Origin: Siphonodentalium dalli
Taxonomy: Eukaryota > Mollusca > Scaphopoda > Gadilida > Siphonodentaliidae
NCBI GenBank assembly: GCA_032622095.1
Contig: CP136068.1
Coordinates: forward strand, 159,049,465-159,113,464
Reading direction: 5' to 3'
Length of the DNA: 64,000 nt
A program made the translations under genes and the position numbers. Positions 1,674 to 40,880 of the stretch are shown here, one piece after another. Each line of letters begins with the position of its first letter. The first letter of the stretch is position 1. The notes beneath the pieces were generated by a model. The model did no database searches and was not told where the DNA came from. It was given only the letters and a program-made list of their open reading frames with translations.

Positions 1674-3441
1674 TTAATGGCAATATAAATATGCGGATAC
1701 AATCATTTCATTGTGGTGTTTAATGGCAATATAAATATAACACACTATGACTTCGAATCACCCGTTCTCTTATGCGATACAACCATTTCTGTGTAGTGTT
1801 TAATAACAATATAAATATAACGCATGTGACTTCGAATCACCCGTTCTCTTATGAGATACAATCATTTAATTGTAGTGTTTAATGGCAATATAAATATAAT
1901 GCACTGTGACTTACAACCACCCGTTCTCTTATGCGGATACAATCATTTCATTGTAGTGTTTAATGGCAATATAAATATAACGCATGCGACTTCGAAGCAC
2001 CTGTTCACTTATGCGGATACAATCATTTCATTGTAGTGTTTAATGGATGGCAATATAAATATAACGCACTATGACTTACAACCACCCGTTCTCTTATGCG
2101 ATACAACCATTTCATTGTAGTGTTTAATGGCAATATAAATATAACGTACTGTGACTTACAACCACCCGTTCTCTTATGCGATACAACCATTTCATTTTAG
2201 TGTTTAATGGCAATATAAATATAACGCACTATGACTTACAACCACCCGTTCTCTTATGCGATACAACCATTTCATTGTAGTGTTTAATGGCAATATAAAT
2301 ATAACGTACTGTGACTTACAACCACCCGTTCTCCTATGTGAATACAATCATTTAATTGTAGTGTTTAATGGCAATATAAATATAACATACTGTGATTTAC
2401 AACCACCCGTTCAATTATGCGATACAATAATTTAATTGTAGTGATAAATGACAATATAAATATAACGCACTGTGACTTCAAATCACCCGTTCATTTATGC
2501 GGGTACAATCATTTCATTGTAGTGTTTAATGGCAATATAAATATAACGCACTGTGACTTACAACCACCCGTTCTCTTATGAGATACAATACTTTCATTGT
2601 AGTGTTTAATGGCAATATAAATATAACGTACTGTGACTTACAACCACCCGTTCTCTTATGAGATACAATACTTTCATTGGAGTGTTTAATGGCAATATAA
2701 ATATAACACACTATGACTTCGAATCACCCGTTCTCTTATGCGATACAACCATTTCTGTGTAGTGTTTAATAACAATATAAATATAACGCATGTGACTTCG
2801 AATCACCCGTTCACTTATGTGAATACAATCATTTAATTGTAGTGTTTAATGGCAATATAAATATAACGCACTGTGACTTACAACCACCCGTTCTCTTATG
2901 AGATACAATACTTTCATTGTAGTGTTTAATGGCAATATAAATATAACACACTATGACTTCGAATCACCCGTTCTCTTATGCGATACAACCATTTCTGTGT
3001 AGTGTTTAATAACAATATAAATATAACGCATGTGACTTCGAATCACCCGTTCACTTATGTGAATACAATCATTTAATTGTAGTGTTTAATGGCAATATCA
3101 ATATAACGTACTGTGACTTACAACCACCCGTTCTCCTATGTGAATACAATCATTTAATTGTAGTGTTTAATGGCAATATAAATATAACATACTGTGATTT
3201 ACAACCACCCGTTCAATTATGCGATACAATAATTTAATTGTAGTGATAAATGACAATATAAATATAACGCATGTGACTTCGAATCACCTGTTCCCTTGTG
3301 CGGGTACAATCATTTAATTGTAGTGTTTAATTGCAATATAAATATAACGTACTGTGACTTACAACCACCCGTTCTCTTATGCGATACAATCATTTCATTG
3401 TAGTATTTAATGGCAATATAAATATAACGTACTGTGACTTA

Positions 3442-4802
3442 GGGCGCGTACACATGAAGCTGCAAGAAAATATCTGCAAGAAAATATCAGGTACAATTGT
3501 ACTCTGATATTTTCTTGCTGAAAAGATTACGCCCGTGAGAAAGCGGCGGGTTAGTTGACGTTGATTGAGCTCAATGTGACTAGTGTTAGTCGTGTTTGTT
3601 GAAGTGAATTACTGCGGACAAACAACCTATAGTCCATATCGAATATTCATAGAGCTATAAAGTGTTATGGAAAATTTAAAATGCCACCTATTTTAACGAG
3701 AAAGGAACGCGCCCTCTATGCATACAGTCCAAATTAAAGTAAAACAACTAAATCAAGGCATGTGAGGTACCAAATTATAAAGCATCCCCATATACGCAGA
3801 AGGTTTCCGTTCGGGGGTGTCCACCTTGGGAAATTCTAACTGCACCCCCCTTAAATCAGAATCAGACCAAACACAAGTTTTCCATAATTCCATTTGCACC
3901 CCCTTGCACCTCAGTGCTCTTAGGCCTAATATTAGACCATGGTTCGGCCCGGTGTGCGAAAATTTTGTAATCTGAACAAGAAAATCGCAAAATCCTACCA
4001 TCTAGACTAACCTCAATCATTCCTAGAGTTGGAAATTTCAAACCTGACACCCCACTTAGGTTGGAAAATTTACATCTGATGACAATTCCAATGGCAATGT
4101 TGACCAAATGTATGACAATATTGTTTTTTTTAAATTAACTAGCAGTTTTTGACTTTTGACTGGCCACGGGGGAGGGACCAGGACACAAGCTTTCAAAGTG
4201 TTGGAAATTTCCAACCTATCACCCCACTGAGGTTGGACAGTTTCCAACTGATGCCCATTTCAGACCAAAATTTTTACCGAAAATATGCAAATATTGGTCC
4301 AAAAACAATTAATTCCCCCAAGAAATGTTTTGAAAATCAAACTACAAGAACATTTTCAACCTATTGTTGGTGTGAAATTTCCAACTAATGTTTTGGCAGG
4401 TATGAAATGTCCAACTGTTGAAAATATTGACCAAAGTTGGGGGTGAGACACACCCCAAGCCCCCCCCTGTCGCCACGTCTCTGTACACACGTATATACAT
4501 GTATATATAATACATCAGCAGTTCTGACAACCAATGTAAAATGGAAATACGTAGTATGTTGAAACAGACGATATTATTGATGGATCATAACTCGAGTGCT
4601 TGAATTGTTACGATCATATCCCTGCGAGATTAGTTAACGGATACCGATGGCCACATATCAAGGTGAACACATATCACCAATTGGCGATAAAATATCAGCG
4701 CGCTGCCTTCGTAGGATATTTTCCGGTATTATTTATTTCATTGGTCAAGTAAGTCACATGGGGCATACCTGATATTTTCTTGCTGGTCATGTGTACGCGC
4801 CC
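3442..4802. mobile_element. Harbinger-like non-autonomous DNA transposon in array A
   Basis: 1361-bp element with about 30-bp imperfect terminal inverted repeats starting GGGCGCGTACACATGA and ending in the complement, followed internally by gcaagaaaatatc motifs. It is flanked by TTA at 3439-3441 and 4803-4805. Removing it restores the monomer text gtgacttacaacc. A 3-bp TTA duplication matches the TWA target of PIF/Harbinger elements. No transposase ORF is seen. Inside are two related stretches (about 4015-4075 and 4195-4255) beginning gttggaaattt and containing caccccactnaggttgga; a relative in inverse orientation lies at about 18370-18560. Confidence 0.82.
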
Positions 4803-5170
4803 TTACAACCACCCGTTCACTTATGCGGATACAGTCATTTCATTGTAGTGTATAATGACAATATACATATAATGCACTATGACTTCGAATCACCCGTTCT
4901 CTTATGCGATACAACCATTTCTGTGTAGTGTTAAATGACAAAATAAATATAACGTACTGTGACTTCGAATCACCCGTTCTCTTATGCGGATACAATCATT
5001 TAATTGTAGTGTTTAATGGCAATATAAATATAACGTACTGTGACTTACAACCACCCGTTCAATTATGCGATACAATAGTTTAATTGTAGTGTTAAATGAC
5101 AATATAAAAATAATGCACTGTGACTTCGAATCATCCGTTCTCTTATGTGAATACAATCATTTCATTGTAG

Positions 5171-5338
5171 TGTATAATGGAAATATAAATATAACGCACT
5201 GTGACTTCGAAGCACCTGTTCACTTATGCGGTTATACACAGGATCAGACTGATACGGGCGAGTGGTGGATCGGATCGGGATCTGAAGACGGCTCGCACAC
5301 GGGACCGTCTCAGGACCACACCTTCCTCACGCAAAACG
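5171..5338 (+). CDS. Exon 2: start of the MAM domain
   Basis: Exon between ttcattgtag and the donor at 5339 (aaaacg/gtgagt), phase 1 at both ends. It reads NINITHCDFEAPVHLCGYTQ, then DQTDTGEWWIGSGSEDGS and HTGPSQDHTFLTQN. The first two of the four conserved MAM cysteines (CDFE...LCGYTQ), the acidic/tryptophan stretch and the GPSQDHT signature are all present. The split codon from exon 1 (a + tg) gives Met. The upstream border is the last monomer of array A. An equivalent acceptor exactly 81 nt upstream (5089/5090) would add 27 in-frame residues, so the start is the least certain border of the gene. Confidence 0.85.
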
Positions 5339-6235
5339 GTGAGTCTCAAACTGGTTCCGGTCAGGGCCAAACCTTCCCCACAGAATACATTGTGTCTCAA
5401 ACTGTTGTCGATAAAACATGGACACGGCATCCTCGTGCAAAACGGTGAGGCTCAATCTGTTGTTGATTCATCAGGGTCACGCTTTCCTCTTTTAAAACGA
5501 TTTGAGTCTCAAATATATTTATGTCAATCAGGGCCATGCCTTCCTCTCACAAAATGGTGAGTTTCATACTGATGTCGACCAATCAGGGCCACGCCTTCCT
5601 CTCGCAAAATTGTGAGTTTCATACTGATGTCGACCAATCAGGGCCACGCCTTCCTCTCGCAAAATTGTGAGTTTCATACTGATGTCGACCAATCAGGGCC
5701 ACGCCTTCCTCTCGCAAAATTGTGAGTTTCATACTGATGTCGACCAATCAGGGCCACGCCTTCCTCTCGCAAAATTGTGAGTCTCATACTGATGTCGATC
5801 AATCAGGGCCACGCCTTCCTCTCGTAAAATGGTGAGTTTCATACTGATGTCGATCAATCAGGGCCACGCCTTCCTCTCGCAAAATTGTGAGTTTCATACT
5901 GATGTCGATCAATCAGGGCCACGCCTTCCTCTCGCAAAATTGTGAGTCTCATACTGATGTCGATCAATCAGGGCCACGCCTTCCTCTCGTAAAATGGTGA
6001 GTCTCATACTGATGTCGATCAATTAGGGCCACGCTTTCCTCATTTAAAACGATGCGCGTGAGTCTCAAATATGTTTCTATCAATCAGGGCCATGCCTTCC
6101 TCTCGTAAAATGGTGAGTATCAAACTGTTGTCGATTCATCTTTCCTCGTTTAAAATAATGCGCGTGAGTCTCAGACATGTTTCTATCAATCAGGACCACG
6201 CCTTCCTCTCGCAAAACGATGGGTGTTAAACTGGT
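5339..6235 (+). repeat. Array B: 55-bp minisatellite derived from exon 2 end plus its 5' splice site
   Basis: Starts at the exon 2 donor and runs as degenerate, then near-perfect 55-bp units (aatcagggccacgccttcct ... cgcaaaat, then gtgagtttcatactg). The exon 2 end reads tcaggaccacaccttcct ... cgcaaaacg/gtgagtctcaaactg. About four in five positions match across the exon-intron junction, so each unit carries a copy of the last ~10 codons and a GTGAGT donor. About 16 units; the middle ones (5570-6000) are the most homogeneous. Confidence 0.9.
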
Positions 6236-6768
6236 CCTACCATGGTCACACATTCCTCATTCAAAAGAGCAACTCATTGACGAATAGTTCCGTCAAGTTT
6301 GTCCACCAGGCAGAACCATTGGGTTATTCCGTAATACAATTTGGCCCTTCGTTTTTTTGTGTGTGATACCCATAATATATGAGCAGGGGGATGCTCGTTC
6401 CCCGGTCCCACAGTAGAGGCACTCCTGTATTGGACTCCGGTAGTGGAAACTTCACTAATGGTGTCCAGAGCCGTCTACCTTGCGGCAGCTTACAAAATTC
6501 AGGATAAGAGTAACAAAAGCATAGAATATAACAGTCTAGACTACCTTGGATTAACCTCCCTTTATCATATTCCCGTTTAAAAAGCAACTGATAAATTAAC
6601 CGCTCTTTATTAAGCGCATGGCATATTCGCCCAAAACTAATAAACAAGGTGTCATAACTCATGTGAGAAATTGTCTGGCGGATTCCAAATTCGAACTTGA
6701 ACCGTACCCGTACCCTAGATATCCTTATAGAATACCCGTTGATTTGATCCTTTCCCAATAATCAGTTG
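6236..6768. other. Intron 2 segment, unrecognised
   Basis: No known element recognised. A 144-codon open frame on the minus strand (6324-6758) has no recognisable domain and lies inside an intron of the plus-strand gene. It could be part of an undescribed dispersed repeat. Confidence 0.3.
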
Positions 6769-7309
6769 CACTGAAAAAAAAAACTTAGTCATAGCCTTAG
6801 TCAACCCGTAACTTAGTTATTTTTGACTAACTTAGCCAAAAGTAACTAAGTGTTACCTTAGTCACATCTTACTAATTCTTAGTTACTAAGGTTGACATTT
6901 TCGTGATTCAGTCATGCCGGCAAAACTCAATAGTATACTTATCGGCGACATATTATACACGGCAATGACACCATACAGTATAACTGAATCTTAATCTGCT
7001 CCATACAGTATAACTGCTTTTTTCAATGTTTTGCACAAGTGAACGCAAACCGCCAATTGGCTTTAACCAAGAGTGCATCAGATAATGAAAAATTGCTTCG
7101 ATGGATAGGATATGTTTGACTAACTTAGCCAAAAGTAACTAAGTTTGACCTTAGTCACATATTACTAATACTTAGTTACTTAGGTTAATATTTTCGTCAA
7201 AAAAAAAAATTAGTCATAGCCTTAGTCAACCCGTAACTCAGTTATTTTTGACTAACTTAGCCAAAAGTAACATAATGACTAAGGCTATGACTAAGTTTTT
7301 TTTTCAGTG
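6769..7309. mobile_element. CTTAGTC inverted-repeat element, copy 1
   Basis: About 541 bp bounded by CACTGAAAAAAAAAA + CTTAGTCATAGCC and its complement (ggctatgactaag ... tttcagtg). The block gactaacttagccaaaag ... cttagttact occurs at both ~6823-6890 and ~7118-7183, a direct internal duplication. No transposase and no clear target-site duplication. It shares ends with the foldback at 8708-9000, so both belong to one family. Confidence 0.7.
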
Positions 7310-8707
7310 TACATTTTATATGCATGTACAACTACAAGAGAGGATATACGTGTACTAGTACTGCACTGTGCGCAGCAGTGTAACTCACACGCTTCAATGT
7401 CAACAAATAGACAACAAACAATGTATATTATATAATATCGCATTCATTCTGTGTTAATCGGGTCGGTACGTATATGGCGAGTACGTAATTTTAACTCAAA
7501 TTATTGTTTCTCCATTTTGTGGCCGACATTTTAATCACTAAAATCAGAGTGATTTAGACGTGATATTGGCGTCGAACGAACTAAAAGAGACGACATATTA
7601 CATAAATAACAACCATGGCGTATTTAGAGAGCTAATAAAATCAGGATAAAAGAGAAGTTATGAAAATAATCTGCGAAACCGTTCATCGTGTATTGTTGAA
7701 CTAATTATTCAGACTCAGTCAGAGCTCTGTTTTCATTCAACAAGTGGACAATTTGTCAATAATGGTTTGATTCTTTATTCTACATGTGAAAGAACAGCGC
7801 CTGAAATATTTGCTGCCAAAATTAGATGTGTGACTGATGACTTCTTCAAGGTTACATGTACACAGTACAGTACATACGGTGTGGTGAACGTTTTTCGCAA
7901 TGGCATTGTGGACGAGCACCCTAAGGCCTAACTTGAACTTGATGTGCATTCCGGCTTGGTGGTCGAGGCTGTTACCTGTTCGATTGCGGACAGTTGTTAA
8001 AGACGGTCTGATTTCGGTTCCTTCGATAACCGGACAAGTTTATATTCTGCGAAAAAAAGGCTTATTAATCATTGACAATTTCCACTAAATTCATCGAGAG
8101 CAGAGATGCATGCCAATTAATCGATGAATCATGATATGATCCTTTCAATCGAATCAATGGTCTGACAATGTCGTCTGATGTCAAGCAATAGTGACAATAA
8201 TATCAACGACTCAACGAGCAGCTACATGTGTATTAATATTATAATGTTGAAAATGCAGTTCATGACAGTACTTGTTCAGAATCTAATTCTTTCAGAGCAC
8301 ATCAATATGATCGACATGCATGTACAAGTTCTACAAGAGAGGACATACGTGTACTAGTATTGTAGTGTGCGCACCAGTGTAACTCACACGAGGTTCAATG
8401 TCAACAAATAGACAAACAACAATGAAACCGATGCTGTGTCGTGATGGATGATCACATTGTTTTAATAGTTAATAAAATTTATTTTTATACCTGTAAGTCA
8501 TTATTTTCAGTTATTTTAATCTGCAGTTGCGATGTTCAGCTGAGATTGCAGGGCTATGATACCCCCAATAATTAGGTCCAATTAAATGTACTAATGTATA
8601 CAGTGATGACATAGTCAAGCCGTAGTTATTTCTGACTAAGGCCTTAGTTATTTCTGACTAAGGCCTTAGTCATTTCTGACTAAGGCCTTATATTATATGT
8701 TATATCT
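7310..8707. repeat. Intron 2 segment with a ~100-bp duplicated block and loose CTTAGTC runs
   Basis: Two copies of one ~100-bp block (tgcatgtacaa ... agagga.atacgtgtactagta ... ttcaatgtcaacaaatagac) lie at about 7321-7425 and 8317-8425, about 1 kb apart. Just before the foldback, gccttagttatttctgacta is repeated three times (about 8625-8690). No exon is recognised. Confidence 0.5.
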
Positions 8708-9000
8708 ACACTGAAAAAAAAACTTAGTCAAAAGTAACTAAGTTACCTTAGTCAGAACCCCCGTCTCAAAACTAACTAGCTTAGCTTAGTCAGAAATGAC
8801 TAAGGTTGCCCTTAGTCATTTCTGACTAAGGTCTGACTAAGATTGCCCTTAGTCATTTCTGACTAAGGCCGTAGACCTTAGTCAGAAATGACTAAGGGCA
8901 ACCTTAGTCATTTCTGACTAAGCTAAGCTAGTTAGTTTTGAGACGGGGGTTCTGACTAAGGTAACTTAGTTACTTTTAACTAAGTTTTTTTTTTCAGTGT
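8708..9000. mobile_element. CTTAGTC foldback element, near-perfect long hairpin
   Basis: 293-bp inverted repeat with arms of about 130 bp that match almost base for base. Both arms read from ACACTGAAAAAAAAA through CCCCGTCTCAAAACTAACTA to the centre (~8840-8875). The centre is made of cttagtcatttctgactaag palindromes. There is no coding capacity and no evident target-site duplication. It is the most intact member of the family also seen at 6769-7309. Confidence 0.8.
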
Positions 9001-10678: not shown

Positions 10679-10845
10679 GACACTATGGATACATCAGTTC
10701 ATTCAACCTCGCACAACCAGACAGCCATGATGCCAGTGTCGCCAGGTTGATCTCGTCGGAATTCGACAATGGGAGAGGCTATTGCATACGTTTTTCATAC
10801 AATATGTATGGCAAAGATATTCGGTCGTTGCGAGTTTACATATCA
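10679..10845 (+). CDS. Exon 3: central MAM domain
   Basis: Acceptor ttaatttcgctag, donor atatca/gtaagt. It enters with two nt completing a split Gly and leaves in phase 0. It reads HYGYISSFNLAQPDS, then ASVARLISSEFDNGRGYC and IRFSYNMYGKDIRSLRVYIS. This is the MAM core with the third conserved cysteine and the characteristic aromatic, MYG and L-V-Y pattern. It joins exon 2 as LTQN-G-HYGYI, matching the family's usual ...GHYLY... continuation. There is no in-frame Met at its start, so a Met-to-stop ORF scan would miss it. Confidence 0.9.
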
Positions 10846-12012: not shown

Positions 12013-12123
12013 ACCCAAGGACATACCGGATATCCACTCTTCAAGGCCGAGGGTAACGCCGGAATAGATTGGATGACGACTGAAATGGATGTAGACTATG
12101 AATACACCGTTACCCCATTCAAC
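12013..12123 (+). CDS. Exon 4: MAM domain segment
   Basis: 37 codons, phase 0 at both ends; acceptor ctccatttcag, donor ttcaac/gtaagt. It reads TQGHTGYPLFKAEGNAG, then IDWMTTEMDVDYEYTVTPFN. It corresponds to the MAM strand-turn-strand region in which a glycine-rich segment, Trp and a YxV/F strand precede the final FEA segment. Confidence 0.85.
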
Positions 12124-14480: not shown

Positions 14481-14604
14481 TTGGTGTTTGAAGCGACAAC
14501 ACTATCGTACGAGCATATGTCGTCCCTGAGCGGATATTACTTCTACGGGAACAAGGGAGATATCGCTATAGACGACATCCAGGTGTACAATACATCATGC
14601 AAAC
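14481..14604 (+). CDS. Exon 5: end of the MAM domain
   Basis: Acceptor tttgttttag, donor gcaaac/gtgagt; enters in phase 0, leaves in phase 1. It reads LVFEATTLSYEHMSSLSG, then YYFYGNKGDIAIDDIQVYN and TSCK. The VFEA ... GDIAIDDI ... C ending is the strongest MAM signature and supplies the fourth conserved cysteine. Confidence 0.95.
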
Positions 14605-14649: not shown

Positions 14650-14745
14650 ATCTCATTCACATTCTATTACTACTATGATAACACTAGACGACATCCAAAC
14701 GTACAACACGTCACGTATACGTGACTATTACGTCACATGGACGTA
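14650..14745 (+). pseudogene. Decayed copy of the exon 5 end and donor
   Basis: tagacgacatccaaacgtac ... acgtgactattacgtca repeats tagacgacatccaggtgtac ... acgtgagtatacgtca of exon 5 and its intron start, about 100 bp downstream. Upstream, attctattactactatgata resembles the exon's attacttctacgggaaca. Reading frame and donor are degraded. Confidence 0.75.
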
Positions 14746-15504
14746 CTTATGTTATTCCCCGGTTTTAGATGTCCATTAAGGAATATACAAGAGGTGGTGT
14801 GTGACTGAACGAGCTGATTAAATTTCCAGACTACAACAGTTTCCAGTATCATCATATTTGGTGAATAAGTTGGAAGGGAGATATCAAGGAAATATCTCAC
14901 CAGATATAGTCCGTGATCGCATTTATTACATCGTAGACATCATAACATCATGCTATACATGCGGCCATATTACACACATTCATCTTGTAACATATGGAGG
15001 ATATTTATGGCTTTGGGTGAGCAATTCAGATCGGCTCACCCACGTATACACGTACATGTATAATTAGTAGACTGTAAATACAGAATTAGCCATTCTGAAT
15101 ACCTATATCAGAGTGCTACTTTGTGGACAATTATTTCATTGTTTATCTGCATTGATTAGCTGTATCAGATGTTCGTTTCTATAGTATTCGCCTTAGGTTC
15201 GTTTCTTCGTTAGGTTAGGCTTTCTCGCAATTTCGACCTTTTCTTTGTATTAATCAGCTGGCTTTTCATATGCAACTTGTCAATTCTTGCCCAAACATGT
15301 GTTCATTAATTACCATTCATCGCACGTATTCTTAATTTATTAGCTTTACTTTTAATAATTAATAATATGTCAAACTGTTAATGCCACTGTGGTGATCGGA
15401 TATTTTATAATGCAAATATATTAAGCGAATCCCGCTTGGTTAATTCACACATGTGCATTCTTTGTATATCAGAATTTGTAACACTGTGTTATGTTACTGT
15501 GCAT
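14746..15504. other. Intron 5 segment, nothing recognised
   Basis: AT-rich sequence without a recognisable repeat or coding segment. Confidence 0.4.
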
Positions 15505-18009: not shown

Positions 18010-18245
18010 GTCACGTTCTGTTACTTCTACGGGTGCAAGGGGTATCGATATTTATGACATCCACGCGCACAATACATCACGTAGTCGTGATTATTACGCC
18101 ATCGTGATGTAAGTATTACGTCATCGGGTCTCACCTCGGCCATATTCTATTACTTCTACGGGAACGACGGGATATCGCTATAGACGACATCCACGCGTAC
18201 ACTACGTCATGCAGACGTGGATGTTACGTCATCGGAACACATCTT
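18010..18245 (+). pseudogene. Two further decayed copies of the exon 5 end
   Basis: Two ~125-bp units at about 18010-18110 and 18135-18245 repeat ttacttctacgggaac ... gggatatcgctatagacgac ... acgtcat from exon 5 and its intron start. They lie 3.4 kb downstream of exon 5, so the original duplication block was probably split by later insertions. The frames are broken relative to exon 5. Confidence 0.75.
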
Positions 18246-18560: not shown

Positions 18561-18587
18561 TCCAAGCTGTAAGTCAGTCAGTCCCGT

Positions 18588-18787
18588 CGCTACCCTGGTT
18601 TGAATGCTGCCATCATGTATATAGAGTTCAGTCCCATCGCTACCCTGGTTTGAATGCTGCCATCATGTATATAGAGTTCAGTCCCCTCGCTATCCTGGTT
18701 TGAATGCTGCCATCATGTATATAGAGTTCAGTCCCCTCGCTACCCTGGTTTGAATGCTGCCATCATGTATATAGAGTTCAGTCCCCT
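18588..18787. repeat. 50-bp tandem repeat, four copies, just upstream of exon 6
   Basis: Near-identical 50-bp units (cgctaccctggtttgaatgc ... gagttcagtccc) ending 18 bp before the exon 6 acceptor. The cag/tccc in each unit resembles a 3' splice site. Some similarity to the exon 6 start (tcccgtcatgccctg) is visible but weak, so I leave the origin open. Confidence 0.9.
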
Positions 18788-18805
18788 CGCAATTGTTTCT
18801 TGAAG

Positions 18806-19009
18806 ATATCCCGTCATGCCCTGCTGGTGCTGTGACACGATTGGACAACTCGACCAACACTCAAGTGTGCTATTCGGTCCATACAATTCGACGATCTTGG
18901 TATGACGCCGCTAGGGTGTGCAGGGCAGAAGGAAAATACGGACACCTGATAACAATTAACAACGCAGACGAGCAGCAATTCATAGCTGACCACATATCAC
19001 AAAGCAAAG
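18806..19009 (+). CDS. Exon 6: first half of the C-type lectin domain
   Basis: Acceptor aattgtttcttgaag, donor aaagcaaag/gtaagt, phase 1 at both ends. It reads IPSCPAGAVTRLDNST, then QVCYSVHTIRRSWYDAARVC and RAEGKYGHLITINNADEQQF. The N-terminal cysteine pair, the WYDAARVC helix with the first core cysteine and the LITINN..EQ segment are those of the C-type lectin fold. The split codon with exon 5 (c + at) gives His and links the MAM and lectin domains without a spacer. Confidence 0.92.
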
Positions 19010-19775
19010 GTAAGTCATCACACCACATATCACATACCACATGTCAGTCATCATCGTAACACATATCACATAACACATGGTAGTCATCATCGTAACGCAT
19101 ATCACAAAACAACGATAAGTCATCGCCGTACCACATATATCACAAAACAACGATCAGTCATCGCCGTACCACATATCACAAAAAAGGATGTAAGATCAGC
19201 CCTCACCATAATATAAATCACAAAACAACGATCAGTCACCGCCACATATCACAATTCAAAGGTCAGTAATCTCAGTAAAACTTTATATCACAAAACAAAG
19301 ACCAGTCATCACCGTAACACATATCGCAACACAAATGTCGGTCGTCGCCGTTACACATATCACAAAACAACAATCAGTCATCGCCGCATATAACAAAATA
19401 AGGCCAGTCATCGCCGTAACACATATTACAAAACAAAGATCGGTCATCGCTGTAACCCATATCACAAACAAAGGTCAGTTATCGTCGTAACACATATCGC
19501 AACACAAATGTCCGTCATCGCCGTTACACACATCGCAAAACAAATGTTGGTCATCGCCATTATACATATCACAAAACAACAATGAGTCATCGCTGCATAT
19601 AACAAATGGAGGCAAGGCATAGCCGTAACACATATCACAAAACAGAGATCGGTCATCGCCGTTACACATATCACAAAACAAAGGTTGGTCATCGCCTTAA
19701 CCTATATCATAAAACAAAGGTCAGTCATCACCATAACACACATCACAAAACAAAGGTCAGTCATCGCAGTAAAAC
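19010..19775 (+). repeat. Array C: 36-bp minisatellite derived from exon 6 end plus its 5' splice site
   Basis: About 20 units of roughly 36 bp (gtaacacatatcacaaaaca + aaggtcagtcatcgcc) start at the exon 6 donor. The exon end reads accacatatcacaaagcaaa + g/gtaagtcatcac, so each unit carries the last coding bases and a donor-like gtcagt or gtaagt. Twelve-residue repeats in minus-strand frames (e.g. VICVTAMTDLCF) are by-products. Confidence 0.9.
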
Positions 19776-22180: not shown

Positions 22181-22428
22181 ACCTGCAGAGGGTAGGCGTG
22201 GACGAATTTTGGACGTCCGGGAACGACGAAGTGGATGAATCACATTTCATGTGGACCGACGGTGATTGTGCGCATCCTGTGCTGAACTACACTGCATGGA
22301 AACCAGGACAACCGAACAACGTGGGCGCCAATCAGAACTGTTTACTCTTAGAGTATCCGGATTACGCGTACACGTGGGGCGATGGCAACTGCACCGATAA
22401 GAAACCGTTTATATGCGAACAGTCCTAA
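22181..22428 (+). CDS. Exon 7 (terminal): second half of the C-type lectin domain and stop
   Basis: It enters with two nt completing an Asp. It reads LQRVGVDEFWTSGNDEVD, then MWTDGDCAHPVLNYTAWKPG, QPNNVGANQNCLLLEY, WGDGNCTDKK, PFICEQS and stop. The FICE ending, the paired cysteines and the W-PGQPN-NC order define a long-form C-type lectin domain. The calcium/sugar motif is QPN rather than EPN or QPD, the usual WND is WGD, and the WIGL position reads FWTSG. Ligand specificity cannot be predicted. TAA is at 22426-22428. Confidence 0.95.
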
Positions 22429-22429
22429 A

Positions 22430-22480
22430 CGCGATGGCAACTGCACCGATAAGAGACCGTTTATATGTGAACAGTCCTAA
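22430..22480 (+). pseudogene. Tandem duplication of the last 51 bp of exon 7
   Basis: gcgatggcaactgcaccgat ... gaacagtcctaaac at 22378-22429 is repeated directly after the stop with few differences (aagaaacc/aagagacc, tgcgaac/tgtgaac), including a second in-frame-looking TAA. It lies in the 3' UTR. Confidence 0.93.
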
Positions 22481-23566
22481 ACAGTGACGTACAGTACATG
22501 ACTAAACACTCAACATCGTGTGGACCCAACTAGGGTTTTTTTTTATTTATTTGTTTCTCTCATCCAAGTTAATACACGTGTAATACAATGATATTGAGAT
22601 ATATAATTATACAAACAATAGAGATATAGAAATATTATACAATAGATATGTACATATGGGTTCGGGTCGATGGCATGTTGAAATTCGATGAATATATTCC
22701 TAGTTTTATTCTGACACCGCTACTAGCTTATTTTCGAAAGGAGTAATAACGGCGCAATCTCGTGTGAAACCTTGTTGGTTGGAGCAAATTATTTGATCGC
22801 AACGCGGTAATAAAAGGTTGATGTCTTCACAGGCACACGCGTGTGTTTATATTTAGTTACAAATGATAGGTTGCTACATGTAGATCGTCAATGTTAGTAT
22901 TTATACCATCGATGATTGACATATCGCTCACTCGTGACTATCGTATAACTGATTCCGGGAACCATACATATATACTAATATACCAAGTTACCAACATAGA
23001 AGCCAAGTATTAATATCATAACGTCTGACTATTTAAATAATCAATTATAACTAATATAATTGCAAATATACCTGCATACTCATTGCGCTTGTTGGCAGGT
23101 ATTTACTTTAATGTGGATGATCGGCTAGCTATCATCAGCAGAAAATTTTAGACTTTCTGTCAAACCCTGCATCTGAACATCACCATAGATGAATGAATGT
23201 GAATCCACACAGCTTCTCTCTCCGTGTCGTCTGCTCGAATCTACACATAATTATATCATAGCAAATCAAAAATAGACAGATTTATGAGGAGAAATTTCGA
23301 TGCATTAATTGTGATCTGAGAATACGTTCGTGATGATCCGAATGAAAGAACAAAGTCTGCGGAGTAATATGGGATTCTTCATATTGAGAATTTCATTTAT
23401 CGCGGTAGCATTTGTTCGTCTATTATATTTTGGTTGTAAAAAGCGTTTTCTTACATCCGTAAAGAACTCACATTCCAATAAATAATGAAATTCATCACCA
23501 CCGTGTATCGCCGGTATTGACGGTGATTGTTTCGCGATGATCCAAGGTGAACATGATTGGAACGTA
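22481..23566. other. Intergenic / 3' flank of gene 1
   Basis: An AATAAA is present at about 22808, a possible polyadenylation signal. Otherwise no repeat or gene is recognised. Confidence 0.4.
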
Positions 23567-28668: not shown

Positions 28669-31600
28669 GTTCTATAGAAATTCACAGGGGACCATCTAGA
28701 TGATGCCAAAGGGGTCTACTAGGAGTAGCTTTTTACGAGAAAGATAATGGTCGGGGTTAGAAATTACTAAAGTGACGCCGTTGTTGTCAGGGGCAGAAAA
28801 GGGGGAAGGGCAGAAAAACAATTTGTCGCCGATTGCCACCAAACTTATATATAATCATCCCCATAATATGAGGAATCTAATGGCGTGGTTTAAAGATGGC
28901 TAAAGTCGCGCCGTTCGCGTCAGGGGTGCCCGGAAGGGGGGGGGGGGGCAGATTTTTTTTCTGTCGCCGATTGCCACGAAACTTACATATAACCATCCCC
29001 ATGATATGAAGAATCCAACGGTGTGGTTTAAATGTGTCAAAAGTGGCGTCGTTTGAGTCGGGGATGAACGGAAGGGGAGAGGGGCACCAAAATTGATAAA
29101 ACTAATTTTAGCGCCGATTTCCACCAAATTGATATATATTCTTCTTCGTGATACAAGGAATCTAATTGTGCGATTTAACAACCCTAAATTGTTGTTTTTG
29201 GATGAGAGATTGGGAGGGGGTGGGCACAAAATTTGATAATAAGTCGCCGATTGCCACCACACTTATACAAAATCATCCCATGGTATGAGGAGTCTAATGG
29301 TGTGGCATTTATCTGTCAAATGTGGCCTCATTCGAGTCAGGGTTGCATTGAAAGGGACAGGGGCACCAAAATTGATGCACAATTTTTTTAGCGCCAATTT
29401 CCACCAAATTGATACACGTTCTTATCCATGATACGAGGAGTCTAATCGTGATTTAAAGACGCCATAGTGGTGCTGTTTGGGTGAGAGATGGAGAGGGGAG
29501 GGATTGGCACCAGTTTGATAAAAAAAATTGTTTAGTCGCCGATTATCACCAAACTTATAAACAATCATCTCCATGATATCAGGAGTGTAATCGTGTGGTT
29601 TGAGGATGTCACAAGTGGGGCCATTCGAGTCAGTGGTGTATATAGATGAGAGGGACAAAAAAAATTATATCTATATGTTTAGTGTCGATTTCCACCAGAT
29701 TGATACTTATTCTTCTCCGTGATACGAGGAATCTTATCGTGTGGTTTAGATACACCAAATTGGTGCCCTATGGGTGAGAGATATGGGGACCTTAAATTTG
29801 ATACGAATTTGTATACTCGCCAATTTTCACCAATTTCATATATATGCATCTCTAATCTCTAATGAGTCTTAGTGTGTGCATCTTGAGTCCGAAATAGGGA
29901 CGGGAGGGTCACCAAAACTGATACAAAATATTTTTAGTACCAATTACCATCAAATTCAGACACGTTCTTCTCAGATGATACAAGAAATAAAATCGTGCTG
30001 TCTGTCTGTATTTTTGTCTGTCTGTGTGCGTTCTATGTATAACTTCATGCGGTACAATCGAGATGGCACCAAGGCGTTCTAAGATGGGTAACTTTTTACA
30101 AGGAAGATAATGGTGCGGGTTAAAATTTTCTAAAATGACGCTGTTGGTGGCAGGGGAAATTATAAAAATATGGTGAAATAGTTTTGTTGCTGATTTCCAC
30201 CAAACGAATACATAATCACCTTCGCAATATGGCGTTGTTCGAGTCAGCGTTGCATCAACAATTGATTTAATAAACCAAATTCCACTAAATTCATACACGT
30301 TTTTCGCTAATGATATACCATGAACTAAATCACATTTGGTGTCGTTTGCGTCACGGATGGCGAGCGGATATGCACTATCAATAATTCATTGATAAGATTG
30401 CTATTCGCCAATATCCACATATAAGTTATATACAGTCACCAGGCCATATCCATATCATTTTAAGTAGTTGGGCGTTCATATTTCACAATCCCGACATATG
30501 GTGACCCACATAAGTCACTTGAACAATTACATCTTCTTAACAGTCATATTTATATCGGAATGGCAATCAAGGCATTCACACAATGAGCTAACAAAAAGAG
30601 ATAACTAGAAGAAGCATTAAACGTATATTTATCATTCTATTGAAGAGATACATATATTCGTGCAAACTGAGAGACCTCGAACCGTCAGAGGATTGCATAT
30701 ATATAATAACAAAATTTAGTCTGTTCCATTCAATACAGTTTCCACAAAAAGTTACAATTTGTCAAGAAATATGGAAGGCCTGTTCAAAAACAGTGGCCAC
30801 AGTGTGCAGTCAAATATAGTTTCTTCTGATATACAAGAAAATGCAGTTAGTAGCACAAGACTTTTCAGGATCATACCAATCTGACAAGGGTATTAGAACA
30901 GACTCATCGACTGACATAAACAAATCAAAATCTCGCTCTGTGCCTGGCACATGTAGCTGATATATATGCGCAGCAACATTTCGTTTCATGGAGATATGAT
31001 AGCCAGGTGTCCTCGAGATCTTAGACCAACCCACTAGATTGTCTGTCTGTCTGTCTGTGTTCTATAGAAATTCACAGGGGACCATCTAGATGATGCCAAA
31101 GGGGTCTACTAGGAGTAGCTTTTTACGAGAAAGATAATGGTCGGGGTTAGAAATTTCTAAAGTGACGCCGTTGTTGTCAGGGGCAGAAAAGGGGGAAGGG
31201 CAGAAAAACAATTTGTCGCCGATTGCCACCAAACATATATAATCATCCCCATAATATGAGGAATCTAATGGCGTGGTTTAAAGATGGCTAAAGTCGCGCC
31301 GTTCGCGTCAGGGGTGCCCGGAAGGGGGGGGGGGGGGGGCAGATTTTTTTTCTGTCGCCGATTGCCACGAAACTTACATATAACCATCCCCATGATATGA
31401 AGAATCCAACGGTGTGGTTTAAATGTGTCAAAAGTAGCGTCGTTTGAGTCGGGGATGAACGGAAGGGGAGAGGGGCACCAAAATTGATAAAACTAATTTT
31501 AGCGCCGATTTCCACCAAATTGATATATATTCTTCTTCGTGATACAAGGAATCTAATTGTGCGATTTAACAACCCTAAATTGTTGTTTTTGGATGAGAGA

Positions 31601-33765
31601 TTGGGAGGGGGTGGGCACAAAATTTGATAATAAGTCGCCGATTGCCACCACACTTATACAAAATCATCCCATGGTATGAGGAGTCTAATGGTGTGGCATT
31701 TATCTGTCAAATGTGGCCTCATTCGAGTCAGGGTTGCATTGAAAGGGACAGGGGCACCAAAATTGATGCACAATTTTTTTAGCGCCAGTTTCCACCAAAT
31801 TGATACACGTTCTTATCCATGATACGAGGAGTCTAATCGTGATTTAAAGACGCCATAGTGGTGCTGTTTGGGTGAGAGATGGAGAGGGGAGGGATTGGCA
31901 CCAGTTTGATAAAAAAAATTGTTTAGTCGCCGATTATCACCAAACTTATAAACAATCATCTCCATGATATCAGGAGTGTAATCGTGTGGTTTGAGGATGT
32001 CACAAGTGGGGCCATTCGAGTCAGTGGTGTATATAGATGAGAGGGACAAAAAAAAATTATATCTATATGTTTAGTGTCGATTTCCACCAGATTGATACAT
32101 ATTCTTCTCCGTGATACGAGGAATCTTATCGTGTGGTTTAGATACACCAAATTGGTGCCCTATGGGTGAGAGATATGGGGACCTTAAATTTGATACGAAT
32201 TTGTATACTCGCCAATTTTCACCAATTTCATATATATGCATCTCTAATCTCTAATGAGTCTTAGTGTGTGCATCTTGAGTCCGAAATAGGGACGGGAGGG
32301 TCACCAAAACTGATACAAAATATTTTTAGTACCAATTACCATCAAATTCAGACACGTTCTTCTCAGATGATACAAGAAATAAAATCGTGCTGTCTGTCTG
32401 TATTTTTGTCTGTCTGTGTGCGTTCTATGTATAACTTCATGCGGTACAATCGAGATGGCACCAAGGCGTTCTAAGATGGGTAACTTTTTACAAGGAAGAT
32501 AATGGTGCGGGTTAAAATTTTCTAAAATGACGCTGTTGGTGGCAGGGGAAATTATAAAAATATGGTGAAATAGTTTTGTTGCTGATTTCCACCAAACGAA
32601 TACATAATCACCTTCGCAATATGGCGTTGTTCGAGTCAGCGTTGCATCAACAATTGATTTAATAAACCAAATTCCACTAAATTCATACACGTTTTTCGCT
32701 AATGATATACCATGAACTAAATCACATTTGGTGTCGTTTGCGTCACGGATGGCGAGCGGATATGCACTATCAATAATTCATTGATAAGATTGCTATTCGC
32801 CAATATCCACATATAAGTTATATACAGTCACCAGGCCATATCCATATCATTTTAAGTAGTTGGGCGTTCATATTTCACAATCCCGACATATGGTGACCCA
32901 CATAAGTCACTTGAACAATTACATCTTCTTAACAGTCATATTTATATCGGAATGGCAATCAAGGCATTCACACAATGAGCTAACAAAAAGAGATAACTAG
33001 AAGAAGCATTAAACGTATATTTATCATTCTATTGAAGAGATACATATATTCGTGCAAACTGAGAGACCTCGAACCGTCAGAGGATTGCATATATATAATA
33101 ACAAAATTTAGTCTGTTCCATTCAATACAGTTTCCACAAAAAGTTACAATTTGTCAAGAAATATGGAAGGCCTGTTCAAAAACAGTGGTCACAGTGTGCA
33201 GTCAAATATAGTTTCTTCTGATATACAAGAAAATGCAGTTAGTAGCACAAGACTTTTCAGGATCATACCAATCTGACAAGGGTATTAGAACAGACTCATC
33301 GACTGACATAAACAAATCAAAATCTCGCTCTGTGCCTGGCACATGTAGCTGATATATATGCGCAGCAACATTTCGTTTCATGGAGATATGATAGCCAGGT
33401 GTCCTCGAGATCTTAGACCAACCCACTAGATTGATTGATACATCTCAATTTGTAAAACCCAATTATCATCTTTTATCGAACTAATGTGTTTATGATGTTC
33501 ATGTATCATATTATAACGTCTAATGTATACGCAGTTGTAAATAAATAAATACTTCATAATTGGTGGAACGGATTAATCGCGATAAACAGAATGACAATTG
33601 ACAAGGTGAGCCACTACTTATATTCCATGACTGTAATAATCATGTTTTGTGATGCTATTTGAATATACAATTTATGAGAAAACGTATAACACTTTAAGCA
33701 TTCTCTATTCTCAACAAATTTCCACAGCATACATTAACCTGGGCAACGCCGGGTAACCCTGCTAG
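28610..33765 (+). mobile_element. Putative Helitron-like non-autonomous element with internal duplication
   Basis: It begins TCTATATCTATATTTGCG before a (CTGT)n run. It ends in a short hairpin (cctgggcaacgccggg, 33738-33753), then taaccctg and CTAG (33762-33765) followed by T. A 5' TC, a 3' hairpin and CTRR-T are Helitron hallmarks, and the left neighbour base is A. The body consists of degenerate ~110-130 bp blocks (gtcgccgattgccaccaaac, then gaggaatctaatggcgtg). No Rep/helicase ORF is visible. The assignment rests on the termini only. Confidence 0.55.
28648..33432 (+). repeat. Near-identical 2.39-kb tandem duplication
   Basis: Copy 1 about 28648-31039, copy 2 about 31040-33432, offset 2391-2392 bp. 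Long stretches, including several open frames, are identical; differences are confined to rare substitutions and homopolymer lengths (e.g. the G run near 28935 and 31324). An older, diverged duplication lies inside each copy (a ctgtctgtctgt / ttctat.taacttca block near 29998 resembles the start). Confidence 0.93.
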
Positions 33766-34162: not shown

Positions 34163-35085
34163 ACTACTTAGGGTTAAGGTTAGGGTTAGGGTAAAGTTAG
34201 AGATAGGTTTAGGGCCATGATTAGGGTTATAGTAAAATTAGTGTTATAGTTTTGGTTAGGGTTTGGGCTAGGTTTAGGGTTAGGGTTTTGGTTAGGTTTT
34301 GGGTTAGGGTTAGGATTATGATTAGGGTTAGAGTAAAATTGGGGTTACAGTTTTGGTTGGGGTTAGGGTTAGTGTGAGGGTTAGGAATAGGATCATGGTA
34401 ATGATTAGGGTTAGAGTAAAATTAGGGTTATGGTTTTGGTTATGGTTTGGGTTAAGGTAAGGGTTATGATTAGGGTTAGAGTAACATTTTGGTTAGGGTT
34501 TGTGCTATTGTTAGGGTTATGGTTAGGATTTTGGTCAGGGGTTTGGCTAGTTTTAATATCAGTGTTATTGTTTATGTCAGGATTGTGAATAAACTTAAAA
34601 ATATGGCTACGATCATGGTTATGGTTATGGGTTAGAGTCAGTTTTAGGGTTGTGAGTTAGGTTATTTTTAGAGTTCGGATTATAATTATGGATAGGGCTA
34701 TGTATAAGCATCATCGTTAGGGTTATGGTTATGGGTTAGATTCAGGTTTAGAGTTGTGAGGTTAGAGTTCGGATTATAATTGTGGATAGGGTTATGTACA
34801 AGGATACGGTACGAATCATCGTTAAGGTTACTGTTATGGAAATATTTTGGGCTATGCATGGGTTTATGTTCTTGGAAATGGTTAAGGCTAAGGGCAGGGT
34901 TAGGGTTATGAGTAGATAATGGTTATGTTTAGGGCTAAGGTTATTGTTAGGGTTATGGATAGGTTAATGTTAACCAGTAAAAACTGTTGTCAGTAATATT
35001 CAAAGGAATTGTGCTATGGTTAGGCCAGTCGGTATGGTTAGATTTATAAAAAGTTTTAGGTTTGTGTTAGGTATATGGAATATAT
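34163..35085. repeat. Degenerate TTAGGG-like array, copy 1
   Basis: About 0.9 kb built of gggttagggtt-like hexamers with many variants. From about 34186 it is closely similar to 37341-38125, including non-hexamer landmarks such as aggccagtcggtatggttag. Copy 1 holds an extra internal ~100-bp duplication. Confidence 0.85.
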
Positions 35086-37340
35086 ATGTTTTTATGTGTA
35101 AGCAATATTTGCTAAGTGGGTGTCTGACCAGGTAACACGTTGTCCAGACGTAGTGAACACCAAACCTGGCACACCAGAATGACAAAAACAAGTCAAAGTG
35201 AGATGCCGGCAGGTAGACCAGAGGCCTTTTGGAAAAGTCAAATGAGGATAAGAGCAAAAACGTCTTAAAACATATTTGTCAAAAGAATCGTTAACGCAAT
35301 ACTGCTGGACACAAAATACACGGGCTATGTTGCAACGTCTCCTCTACACACACTATGCTTGGCAATATTTTAAGTTCCCGTCCCGATGACTCAGTAAGTA
35401 AGTAAGGCACATTGTACTAAATGGAGGGGACCTCGATGACCCAGTCAGCAAGGCGCACGAACTCCCACACGGAAACCCCGATGTCCCAGTCATCAACGTG
35501 TATGACCCTCTTACGGGTTGGACCCCGGTGCCTCAACCGGTAAGGTGCATGGTATTATCATGGAAGGACCCGGTGATATAATTAGTAAGTCGTATACAAT
35601 CTTATGGATGGGAACCGGTGTCCAATATTACCACGGATGCGGCCCCGGTGCTTCAACCAGCAAGGCGCATGGCCATAAACCTTAATTTCTTATCTGGTCC
35701 CCAACATAAATCAGTTTGTGGTGTATCTATGACACAAGGGTTGCCAGCCACCAAGTAATGTAACTATATATATTTATAATATCAAATAACATATATGTAG
35801 TGGGGTTGTATATAGTCCAAAGCAACCCCGAAACTCAACACTAGGATGTGATACTAACATAAGATAATAAATTGTTTGTATATTATATTAATAAATGTGT
35901 TAAAGTCTATACATATTAATAATGCCATATAAGCAGTGTGCTTGTTAAAAATAATAACAGGTATTAAAGTTCCTCAAAGTAGTAACAGGTAGACTAGTTT
36001 ATAGAATTTATAGTTAATAAGTGATTGAAAAGTCTAGTTTATAACTATGCCCTTGTTGTTATCGGGTGGTACCGGCATCCAACGAGATCGCATCGCCCGT
36101 ATAAATTCCCACATTTTAAATATTTCCGCGCTATCATATATGCGCATTTTACATATTAGATATCGGTATACACAAATTATGGCATCCAGGTGAGACATAA
36201 AAATCTCTTGCGGAAAACAGACGCACACGGACGGACGGGCGGACTGAACAAACGGCAGACAAGGAATGTCGGCCACAAAACGTTATCCGACATTATATTA
36301 AATATGTATTAGCGACTTTAATGTGTCAAGGAGTTGATTGTATGCGTGGATGGAGTTGGACCGTTGGAGTCCGCAATATTTATAACAACCAACGCTATCC
36401 AAATACATGCACACGCACGTGTTACATGCTTGACACTCTGGGGTCCGGAGCCCCCGTCTTTGCAAAATAATTGCGCTTAACATGTATACATATGTAAACC
36501 ATAATATTTATATACTTATTAAAAGATACCAACACTGAATATTTTCAATTATCGAATTATCCACACACTATCGTGACAAGTTATTTCGTTTACTTGATCA
36601 AGGGAGGTCCCGTTGTTTGATCATTGGCAACCATAAGTCCGTATTAAAATAAATAATAGATAAACAAATCCTCATGCAACACAGCAACCCCGAGTCAAAG
36701 GCCAAACATGCAGCAAGCATCCACACGTCACACGACAACATGTCCATCCTACACTTGTCATGATAATTGATATATAGGGCTGTTGTTAGTAAGTAATTAA
36801 ATTACAAACCTATACATATGACATGGTGAACGCTCTTTATGTAGAGTATATAACAGTTATGTATATATATGGTACATCGGTTGGAAATGTGTTCAAAGTT
36901 CCCATGCATACAATTTGTTATCGTGATAGCAGACAAAAACGTGGGCCATCCCACATACAGGTATACAATCAACCATCCATAAGTTAAATGGTTTGTTGGT
37001 TAACGGGTCCTGTTTCTAAAGTGGTGTTGACATGTGGAGCTATGTAAACATGTCATATTTACTGTATTTGAGTGTTTATTTTTTGAGTGTTTATTTTTTG
37101 ACTTATCGTACTAGCTTGATAACACAGAAGGAATCAATTGTTTGGAAAATGTTTACTAAGTCCGTTCCGAAATCATATTTTTATACCGAAAGTTGGTCCT
37201 ATAAAAAAATGTTTGGCCACAGCAGCTCATCAGGTACACTTCTGGTCTATAACAAATATAAAGCAATCTGTTATTTCATATGTGGTTTCGGGAGTATAAG
37301 TGCACGACCTTATGGACAGACCAGTTCTCCCGTACAGACC
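35086..37340. repeat. Spacer with degenerate SINE-like units (35380-35680)
   Basis: Four to six degenerate units of the type ccccggtgcctcaaccggta + aggtgcatgg, spaced about 60-100 bp. They look like a tRNA A-box region (a similar ggtgcctaggtcggtaaggt is at 51690). I see no B box. The rest is AT-rich with no gene recognised. Confidence 0.4.
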
Positions 37341-38125
37341 AAGTTAGGGATAGGATTAGGGTTATGATTAGGGTTATAGTAAAATTAGTGTTATGGTTTT
37401 GGTTAGGGTTTGGGCTAGGTTTAGGGTTAGGGTTTTGGTTAGGTTTTGGGTTAGGGTTAGGATTATGATTAGGGTTAGAGTAAAATTGGGGTTACAGTTT
37501 TGGTTGGAGTTAGGGTTAGTGTGAGGGTTAGGAATAGGATCATGGTAATGATTAGGGTTAGAGTAAAATTAGGGTTATGGTTTTGGTTATGGTTTGGGTT
37601 AAGGTAAGGGTTATGATTAGGGTTAGAGTAACATTTTGGTTAGGGTTTGTGCTATTGTTAGGGTTATGGTTAGGATTTTGGTCAGGAGTTTGGCTAGTTT
37701 TAATATCAGTGTTATTGTTTATGTCAGGATTGTGAATAAACTTAAAATTATGGCTATGATCAGGGTTATGGTTATGGGTTAGAGTCAGGTTTAGAGTTGT
37801 GGGTTAGGTTAGAGTTAGAGTTCGGATTAGAATTGTGGATAGGGTTATGTACAAGGATACGGTACGAATCATCGTTAGGGTTACTGTTATGGAAATATTT
37901 TGGGTTATGCAGGGGGTTATGTTCTTGGAAATGGTTAAGGCTAAGGGCATGGTTAGGGTTATGAGTATATAATTGTTATGTTTAGGACTAAGGTTATGGT
38001 TAGGTTTATGGATAGGTTAATGTTAAACAGTTGTCAGTAATATTCAAAGGAATTGTGCTATGGTTAGGCCAGTCGGTATGGTTAGATTTATAAAAAGTTT
38101 TAGGTTTGGGTTAAGTATATGGTTA
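37341..38125. repeat. Degenerate TTAGGG-like array, copy 2
   Basis: Closely similar copy of 34186-35085 in the same orientation, about 3.2 kb away. It flows directly into the 42-bp array. Confidence 0.85.
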
Positions 38126-38159
38126 TGAATATGGTTATTGTGAGTGTTATGGATAGGAT

Positions 38160-38935
38160 TAGGGCTATTCATTGTGTTAGGGTTAAGGATATGATTGAGG
38201 TTAGTGTCGTGGGTAGGGTTAGGGTTAAGCCGCCGTTAGGGATATGATTGAGGTTAGTGTCGTGGGTAGGGTTAGGGTTAAGGATATGATTTAGGTTAGT
38301 ATCGTGGGTAGGGTTAGGGTTTAGGATATGATTGAGGTTAGTGTCGTGGGTAGGGTTAGGGTTAAGCCGCTGTTAAGGATATGATTGAGGTTAGTGTCGT
38401 GGGTAGGGTTAGGGTTAAGGATATGATTGAGGTTAGTGTCGTGGGTAGGGTTAGGGTTAAGGATATGATTGAGGTTAGTGTCGTGGGTAGGGTTAGGGTT
38501 AATAATATGATTGAGGTTAGTATCGTGGGCAGGGTTAGGGTTAAGGATATGATTGAGGTTAGTGTCGTGGGTAGGGTTAGGGTTAAGCCGCCGTTAAGGA
38601 TATGATTGAGGTTAGTACCGTGGGTAGGGTTAGGTTAAGGATATGATTGAGGTTAGTGTCGTGGGTAGGGTTAGGGTTAAGGATATGATTGAGGTTAGTA
38701 TCGTGGGTAGGGTTAGGGTTAAGGATATGACTGAGGTTAGTATCGTGGGTAGGGTTAGGGTTAAGGATATGATTGAGGTTAGTGTCGTGGGTAGGGTTAG
38801 GGTTAAGGATATGATTGAGGTTAGTGTCGTGGGTAGGGTTAGGGTTAAGGATATGATTGAGGTTAGTGTCGTGGGTAGGGTTAGGGTTAAGGATATGATT
38901 GAGGTAAGTGTCGTGGGTATGGTTAGGGTTAAGGA
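38160..38935. repeat. 42-bp TTAGGG-derived tandem repeat
   Basis: About 17 units of ggttaaggatatgattgagg + ttagtgtcgtgggtagggttag. Because 42 is a multiple of three, frames stay open (MIEVSVVGRVRVKD repeats). Not considered a gene. Confidence 0.93.
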
Positions 38936-40880
38936 TGTGGTTCGGGTTAGTGTTATGGATATGGTTAGGGTTATTGATTGTGTTAGGGTTAAGGATGGTT
39001 CAGGTTAGTGTTATGGATATGGTTAGTGTGAGTGTCGTGGGTAGGGTTATGGTTATTGGTTGAGTTAGGGTTAAGGATATGGCTGAGGTTAGTGTTATGG
39101 ATATAGCTAGTGTGAGTATCATTGGTAGGGTTAGTGTTATGGATATGGTTAGTGCGAGTGTTATGGATATGGTTAGGGTTATTGATTGTGTTAGGGTTAA
39201 GGATATGGTTGATATTAGTGTTATGGATATGGTTAGTGTGAGTGTCGTGGGTAGGGTTATGATTATTGGTTGAGTTATGGTTAAGGATATGGTTGCTGTT
39301 CGTGTTATGGATATGACTAGTGCGAGTGTTATGGATATGGTTAGGGTTATTGATTGTGTTAGGGTTAACGATATTGTTGAGATTAGTGTTATGGATATGG
39401 TTAGTGTGAGTGTCGTGGGTAGGGTTAGGGTTATTGGTTGAGTTAGGGTTAAGGATAGGGTTGATGTTGGTATTATGGATAAGGTTAGCTCGAGTGTCAT
39501 GGGTAGGGTTATAGTACAGGTGATCTAATTGCAACACTAATGCCTTTTGGTTTACGGACAGCTGAATATGTACTGTATTAGAATATAAATTTTATAATTT
39601 CATGGATAGGGTTAAGTTATTGATTGAGTTAGGGTTAAGGATATGATCGAGGTTAGTGTTATGGATATGTTTAGTGCGGGTGTTATGGATAGGGTTAGGA
39701 TTATTGATTGTGTTAGGGTTAGGGATAGGGTTGAGATTAGTGTTATTGATATGGTTAGTGTGAGTGTCGTGGGTAGGGTTAGATTTATTGACTGGGTTAG
39801 GGTTAAGGATATGATTGACGTTAGTGTCGTGGGTAGGGTTATTGATTGTGTTAGGGTTAAGGATAGGTTTGAGGTTAGTGTTATGGATATAGTTAGTGTG
39901 AGTGTCACGGATAGGGTTGGGGTTATTGATTGTGTTAGGGTTAAGGATACGGTTGATGTTAGTGTTATGGATATGGTTAGTGTGACTGTCAAGGATAGGG
40001 TTAGGGTTATTGATTGTGTTAGGGTTAAGGATACGGTTGATGTTAGTGTTATGGATATGGTTAGTGTGAGTGTCACGGATAGGGTTGGGGTTATTGATTG
40101 TGTTAGGGTTAAGGATACGGTTGATGTTAGTGTTATGGATATGGTTAGTGTGACTGTCAAGGATAGGGTTAGGGTTATTGATTGTGTTAGGGTTAAGGAT
40201 ACGGTTGATGTTAGTGTTATGGATATGGTTAGTGTGAGTGTCGTGGATAGGCCTAGGGTTATTGATTGTGTTAGGGTTAAGGATAGGTTTGAGGTTAGTG
40301 TTATGGATATAGTTAGTGTGAGTGTCATGGATAGAGTTAGAGTTATTGACTGGGTTAGGGTTAATGATACGGTTGATGTTAGTGTTATGGATATGGTTAG
40401 TGTGACCGTCAAGGATAGGGTTAGGGTTATTGATTGTGTTAGGGTTAAGGATACGGTTGATGTTAGTGTTATGTATGTGGTTAGTGTGAGTGTCACGGAT
40501 AGGACTAGGGTTATTGTGTTAGGGTTAAGGATAGGGTTGAGGTTGGTGTTATGGATATGGTTAGTGTGAGTGTCATGGATAGGGTTAGAGTTATTGACTG
40601 GGTATGGGTTAATGATACGGTTGATGTTAGTGTTATGGATATGGTTAGTGTGACTGTCAAGGATAGGGTTAGGGTTATTGATTGTGTTAGGGTTAAGGAT
40701 ACGGTTGATGTTAGTGTTATGGATATGGTTAGTGTGAGTGTCGTGGATAGGCCTAGGGTTATTGGTTGTGTTAGGGTTATGGATATGGTTGAGGTTAGTG
40801 TTATGGATAAGGCTATGTATAGCATTAGTGTTATCGATCGGACACGTTTATGTATGGGGTTACGGCTGTTGTTACGGTAA
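38936..40880. repeat. 84-bp higher-order repeat of the TTAGGG-derived unit
   Basis: Roughly 20 units of about 84 bp (two diverged 42-bp halves), e.g. gggttattgattgtgttagg ... gttatggatatggttagtgt. Interrupted by non-repeat sequence at ~39525-39600. Long frames are open on both strands (39643-40569 plus, 39612-40496 minus), as expected for a stop-poor repeat with a period divisible by three. Confidence 0.92.

Follow-up and report, generated by a model that had tools for sequence, protein, structure and literature searches.

Tandem repeats that occupy a single border of an exon are already known from human genes. In intron 7 of F7, the donor lies within the first of a run of highly similar 37-bp repeats, and splicing relies on the most upstream donor alone (PMC6627357). 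CBS carries a 31-bp VNTR, c.1444_1467+7(16_21), with 16 to 21 copies (PMC2630376, PMC1395315). Judged by its name, the unit comprises the end of an exon and the first bases of the intron, with a donor in each copy, like array B described below; the available passages of these papers place it on the donor side only, and its unit is shorter than those of the arrays analyzed here. The same gene provides 844_845ins68, a 68-bp duplication of an intron/exon junction that is silenced by splicing, with the distal copy favored (PMC2630376). This resembles the borders described here, in which a junction appears to have been duplicated silently, but it is a single extra copy and not an array. Tandem repeats at exon-intron boundaries have also been collected from human genes in segmental duplications (162 alignments, 27 intron modifications kept after inspection; PMC2812944). 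The available parts of that paper present them as creating novel introns, whereas the units described here span existing borders around an unchanged exon.

Here we analyze an exon of the scaphopod Siphonodentalium dalli that lies between two arrays, each of which repeats one of its own borders. As in F7, its donor lies within the first of the tandem repeats of an exon border; F7, as far as the available passages describe it, involves one border of one exon, whereas in S. dalli the repeats occur at both borders of exon 2, at other exon borders, and in a second gene. As in the splice-border minisatellites of the F7 and CBS type, the repeat units hold the exon edge, the splice site and the adjoining intron of the neighboring exon, and the copy that belongs to the exon is the innermost unit, with its coding sequence kept in an open frame of 449 codons. 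The two-sided case thus adds to a kind of which single-sided members have been described. None of the matches listed in our literature search, which covered few subscription papers, showed an exon with arrays of its own borders on its two sides, and the available passages of PMC3778950, PMC12783039, PMC2883569, and PMC4039745 do not describe border-founded arrays.

The window is the whole stretch of 64,000 nucleotides that was analyzed (GenBank assembly GCA_032622095.1, contig CP136068.1, positions 159,049,465 to 159,113,464); positions are counted from its first letter. Exon 2 occupies 5171–5338 on the + strand, is preceded by AG and followed by GTGAGT, has phase 1 at both ends and encodes the first part of a MAM domain. 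Its length is exactly 168 nt, as the sequence-only reading had stated. That reading set the beginning of the feature at 5242, whereas the exon already starts at 5171; array B extends from 5360 to about 6260.

Seven + strand exons with AG/GT borders join into a single frame of 449 codons with a stop at 22428. Besides exon 2, these are a CBM_14 exon (362–667), three MAM exons, called b (10679–10845), b2 (12013–12123) and c (14481–14604), lectin exon a (18782–19009), and lectin exon b with the stop codon (22181–22428). Pfam profiles matched the translated frame over the full MAM domain (positions 1–158 of 158, E = 5.7e-27), over a C-type lectin domain (Lectin_C, 3–107 of 107, E = 1.5e-15), and for CBM_14 (E = 3e-7). 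Both the MAM and the lectin domain were present in 11 of 17 protein matches. The named relatives with this combination come from oysters, a scallop, a pearl oyster, and snails; the relatives are 34–44% identical to the predicted protein. Because a C-type lectin domain comes after the full MAM domain and the relatives include molluscs, the gene is predicted to encode a mollusc MAM plus C-type lectin protein; exon 2 is a real coding exon at the start of the MAM domain. The splicing pattern of this predicted gene is deduced from frame, phase, and homology. The CBM_14 exon is placed in the same gene by phase and frame only, which do fit; CBM_14 is absent from the precomputed domains of the 11 relatives with MAM and lectin.

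Upstream of exon 2 lies array A, built of 80/81-bp units on the + strand and divided into an outermost block (706–1101), a main block (1690–3441), and a block that adjoins the exon (4804–5170). The three blocks together hold 31 units of at least 80% length, the exon copy not included, and 29 of the 31 are distinct. In these units, the acceptor motif (TTGTAG) is joined to roughly the first 60 nt of exon 2; in the copy that includes exon 2 itself, 77 of 81 positions match the consensus. An intact TTGTAG is present in 24 of the 31 units, and its window ranks 17 of 81 in conservation. The interval 3441–4803, about 1.36 kb, is occupied by a transposon-like element whose terminal inverted repeats, 17 nt long, are perfect, and which has a possible TA target duplication. 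The element splits the array inside a unit, and array A is therefore probably older than this insertion.

On the other side of the exon lies array B (5360 to about 6260, + strand), with 55-bp units of which 16 outside the exon reach at least 80% length. The corresponding copy at the exon end (5309–5359) comprises the end of the exon, the donor GTGAGT, and the start of the intron. That these units match the last 30 or so nucleotides of exon 2 and the first 15 or so of the intron at about four of five positions, as had been proposed, is borne out by a gapless alignment of 5310–5353 (29 nt of exon end and 15 nt of intron start) with the consensus of array B. It gives 37 identities in 44 positions, counted as 24/29 in the exon part and 13/15 in the intron part, with a score of 53, and the best of 20,000 dinucleotide-preserving shuffles reached 31. 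Such a score also upholds the match under the shuffle test that had been suggested for the 3′ border. The exon part alone (5309–5338) shared 27 of 29 positions with array B itself, for a score of 48, while 1,000 shuffles gave 26 at most; the downstream intron alone (5342–5390) scored 24, which 5 of 5,000 shuffles reached. The interior of the exon (5242–5309) had no match in array B (score 15, reached by 933 of 5,000 shuffles). Elsewhere in the window, the best match of the array B unit scored 23 on the + strand (5240–6300 excluded) and 24 on the − strand, against 53 at the exon border. With acceptor-side copies on the left and donor-side copies on the right, exon 2 does indeed sit between copies of its two borders. 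The earlier description of the repeats as satellites was too strong: as far as the window shows, they are local intronic minisatellites.

The direction from exon to array, which the sequence-only reading had assumed when it called the array seeded by the exon, is supported by a site in the MAM domain at which exon 2 reads D-H-T. Two of the 11 aligned relatives are gapped there; of the nine with residues, six agree with exon 2 and the other three read D-R-T, E-H-S, or D-H-S. The units of array B read G-H-A. Since exon 2 shares D-H-T with these six relatives and the array does not, the exon, and not the array, keeps the older sequence.

Agreement with the 55-bp consensus was 41 of 55 for the exon copy and 41, 37, and 38 for the next three units; it rose to 51–55 in the nine central units and was 42, 46, 30, and 41 in the last four full units. 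The suggestion that the units nearest the exon are the most diverged therefore holds in part: divergence is present there, but it is found at the far end likewise, and no gradient runs from the exon. Diverged ends around a uniform middle are as expected of an array that was homogenized from within; 13 of the 16 units are distinct. Among the 6-nt windows of the unit, none is better conserved than GTGAGT (rank 1 of 55), which is intact in 12 of the 16 units. The exact motif is lost in the three units that adjoin exon 2, a loss that fits either drift or selection against near decoys.

Further borders of the MAM-lectin gene are repeated on the + strand. The end of MAM exon c and its donor have a near copy at 14685–14750 and two more copies within 18021–18238 (18021–18123 and 18148–18238; together array C). 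For its exon part, the near copy scored 33 against a shuffle score of 32, barely above, whereas the comparison with the two far copies was strong (98 against 30). In array D (18578–18790), 50-bp units repeat the acceptor of lectin exon a; intron plus exon match at 39 of 39 positions, and the exon part alone is weak (11 of 12 nt, which 12 of 1,000 shuffles equalled). Array E (19023–19772) has 36-bp units with the donor border of the same exon, and its exon part scored 34 against 31 in shuffles, a weak margin. All 21 of its units are distinct, and its donor window is among the most variable of the unit (rank 3 of 36), being intact in 4 of 21. We make no claim of selection on the splice motifs, which are conserved in B, moderately so in A, and variable in E. 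The coding end with the stop codon is contained in a 52-bp duplication (F, 22379–22483). A second gene on the − strand contributes an independent case of border copying, a 63-bp tandem duplication (61181–61303) that covers the donor border of an exon (61271–61563) of a Cys-loop receptor. This exon matched a ligand-gated channel family of NCBIfam with E = 1e-9; the match falls well short of the curated cut-off, as a fragment would.

We surveyed the 15 splice borders that could be defined in the window, which may contain further exons, by taking 41 nt across each border and comparing its best same-strand copy within 3 kb with 300 shuffles. Local copies were found at six borders, each with a score that none of the 300 shuffles reached: both ends of exon 2 and of lectin exon a, and the 3′ ends of MAM exon c and the Cys-loop exon. 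The orientation is the same in all six, with acceptor copies upstream and donor copies downstream. The other nine borders had no local copies, their scores being reached by 37 to 269 of the 300 shuffles.

We consider it probable (roughly 65%) that arrays A and B are minisatellites that arose from short tandem duplications across the edges of exon 2, stayed silent through the use of the innermost splice sites, and expanded neutrally. A segment with the exon edge, the splice site, and the adjoining intron was duplicated to begin with, as the units themselves show. Following the human precedent, such a duplication would be harmless if the spliceosome takes the innermost sites, namely the final acceptor before the exon and the first donor after it, and the surplus copies would fall into the intron. 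A border duplication would thus be silent, unlike one within the exon, and could expand like other intronic minisatellites. Slippage or unequal exchange may then have multiplied and homogenized the middle units while the ends stayed diverged, as the pattern of the units suggests. The same course may have been taken at the other repeated exon edges of the MAM-lectin gene and at the one edge in the second gene. With the exon's own site included each time, A has 25 TTGTAG acceptors, B 14 GTRAGK donors, D 4 TTCAG acceptors, and E 6 donors; the frame stays open for 2, 1, 1, and 2 of them, respectively. Outer splice sites would therefore nearly always spoil the protein, and the arrays are tolerable if the innermost pair is chosen. 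Exclusive use of the innermost sites would agree with frame and homology, as these sites yield the one 449-codon frame with full-length MAM and lectin matches.

Unbiased birth of the arrays may not suffice, because five border-spanning arrays were seen where 0.40 were expected. Some process coupled to transcription or splicing could instead direct array birth to exon-intron borders, with exon edges as preferred founders, a reading that we consider unlikely. The expected number comes from a founder model in which each array starts at a random position of the gene that is not wholly inside an exon. Measured against this model, 5 of 12 gene arrays span a splice border (P = 2e-5; 5e-6 without two transposon-like arrays; 0.0013 with the longest unit assigned to all arrays), and P is only 0.0037 when A and B, and likewise D and E, count as one event each. 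These values serve as a guide only, as the window was chosen after the fact and the list of 12 arrays was made by hand (period at least 20, simple repeats excluded, the unit of C taken by eye as 105 bp, F scored as non-border). The seventh duplication at the coding end (F) and the independent one in the second gene on the other strand speak for steering as well. Against it, a local copy with a score of at least 33 occurs at 5 of 13 gene borders and at 35% of sampled gene positions, which is no excess, and 9 of 15 borders lack copies. The excess of border arrays thus appears by the founder model only and is absent by position. The cases come from two genes in one window picked after the fact, and there is no known mechanism. 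That steered birth in this genome flanks exons with arrays of their own edges, acceptor upstream and donor downstream, is just as doubtful.

The copies might also be kept by function, as spare splice sites or decoys through which splicing is tuned or unproductive transcripts arise. The prominence of GTGAGT in B and the 24 of 31 intact TTGTAG motifs in A would suit such a role, as would one acceptor in A that adds 81 nt in frame and one donor in E that adds 33 nt in frame. All remaining outer sites that were counted lead to early stops, however, the donor window of E is highly variable, and the three units of B beside exon 2 lack an exact GTGAGT; conservation among the middle units of B, which are recent copies, is not necessarily a sign of selection. 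We regard this function as distinctly improbable. The converse history, in which arrays or a mobile repeat came first and captured or overwrote the exon, is already disfavored and very improbable. The closeness of the exon copy to the consensus of A (77/81) does allow for recent exchange with that array, but exon 2 encodes conserved MAM residues common to the relatives at positions where the B units differ, and the B unit has no good match elsewhere in the window. An assembly artifact, to which tandem arrays are prone in copy number, is least credible, since the units differ among themselves in A, B, and E alike and array A is interrupted by a transposon-like element whose terminal repeats are perfect.

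Exon 2 is a natural experiment in which the spliceosome has to pick one of many nearly equal sites. With its own sites counted, 25 exact copies of the acceptor motif lie to its left and 14 donor-like sites to its right, and use of almost any outer one would wreck the protein. If border-founded arrays were common in such repeat-rich genomes, they would offer a route for introns to grow outward from exons and would be a trap for gene annotation.

The window had no Rfam match at gathering cut-offs. Other features were observed in it. Repeated palindromic motifs (TGACTAAG/CTTAGTCA) at 6790–8922 are perhaps small mobile elements. According to the list of open frames, the region 28880–33208 contains a large direct duplication, in which the open frames of 28880–30816 recur about 2.4 kb further on (31268–33208). 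Long arrays of TTAGGG-like units, strongly G-skewed and resembling degenerate telomere-type repeats, extend over 34168–40809. A 1266-codon open frame at 55998–59795 has endonuclease and reverse transcriptase domains of the non-LTR retrotransposon type.
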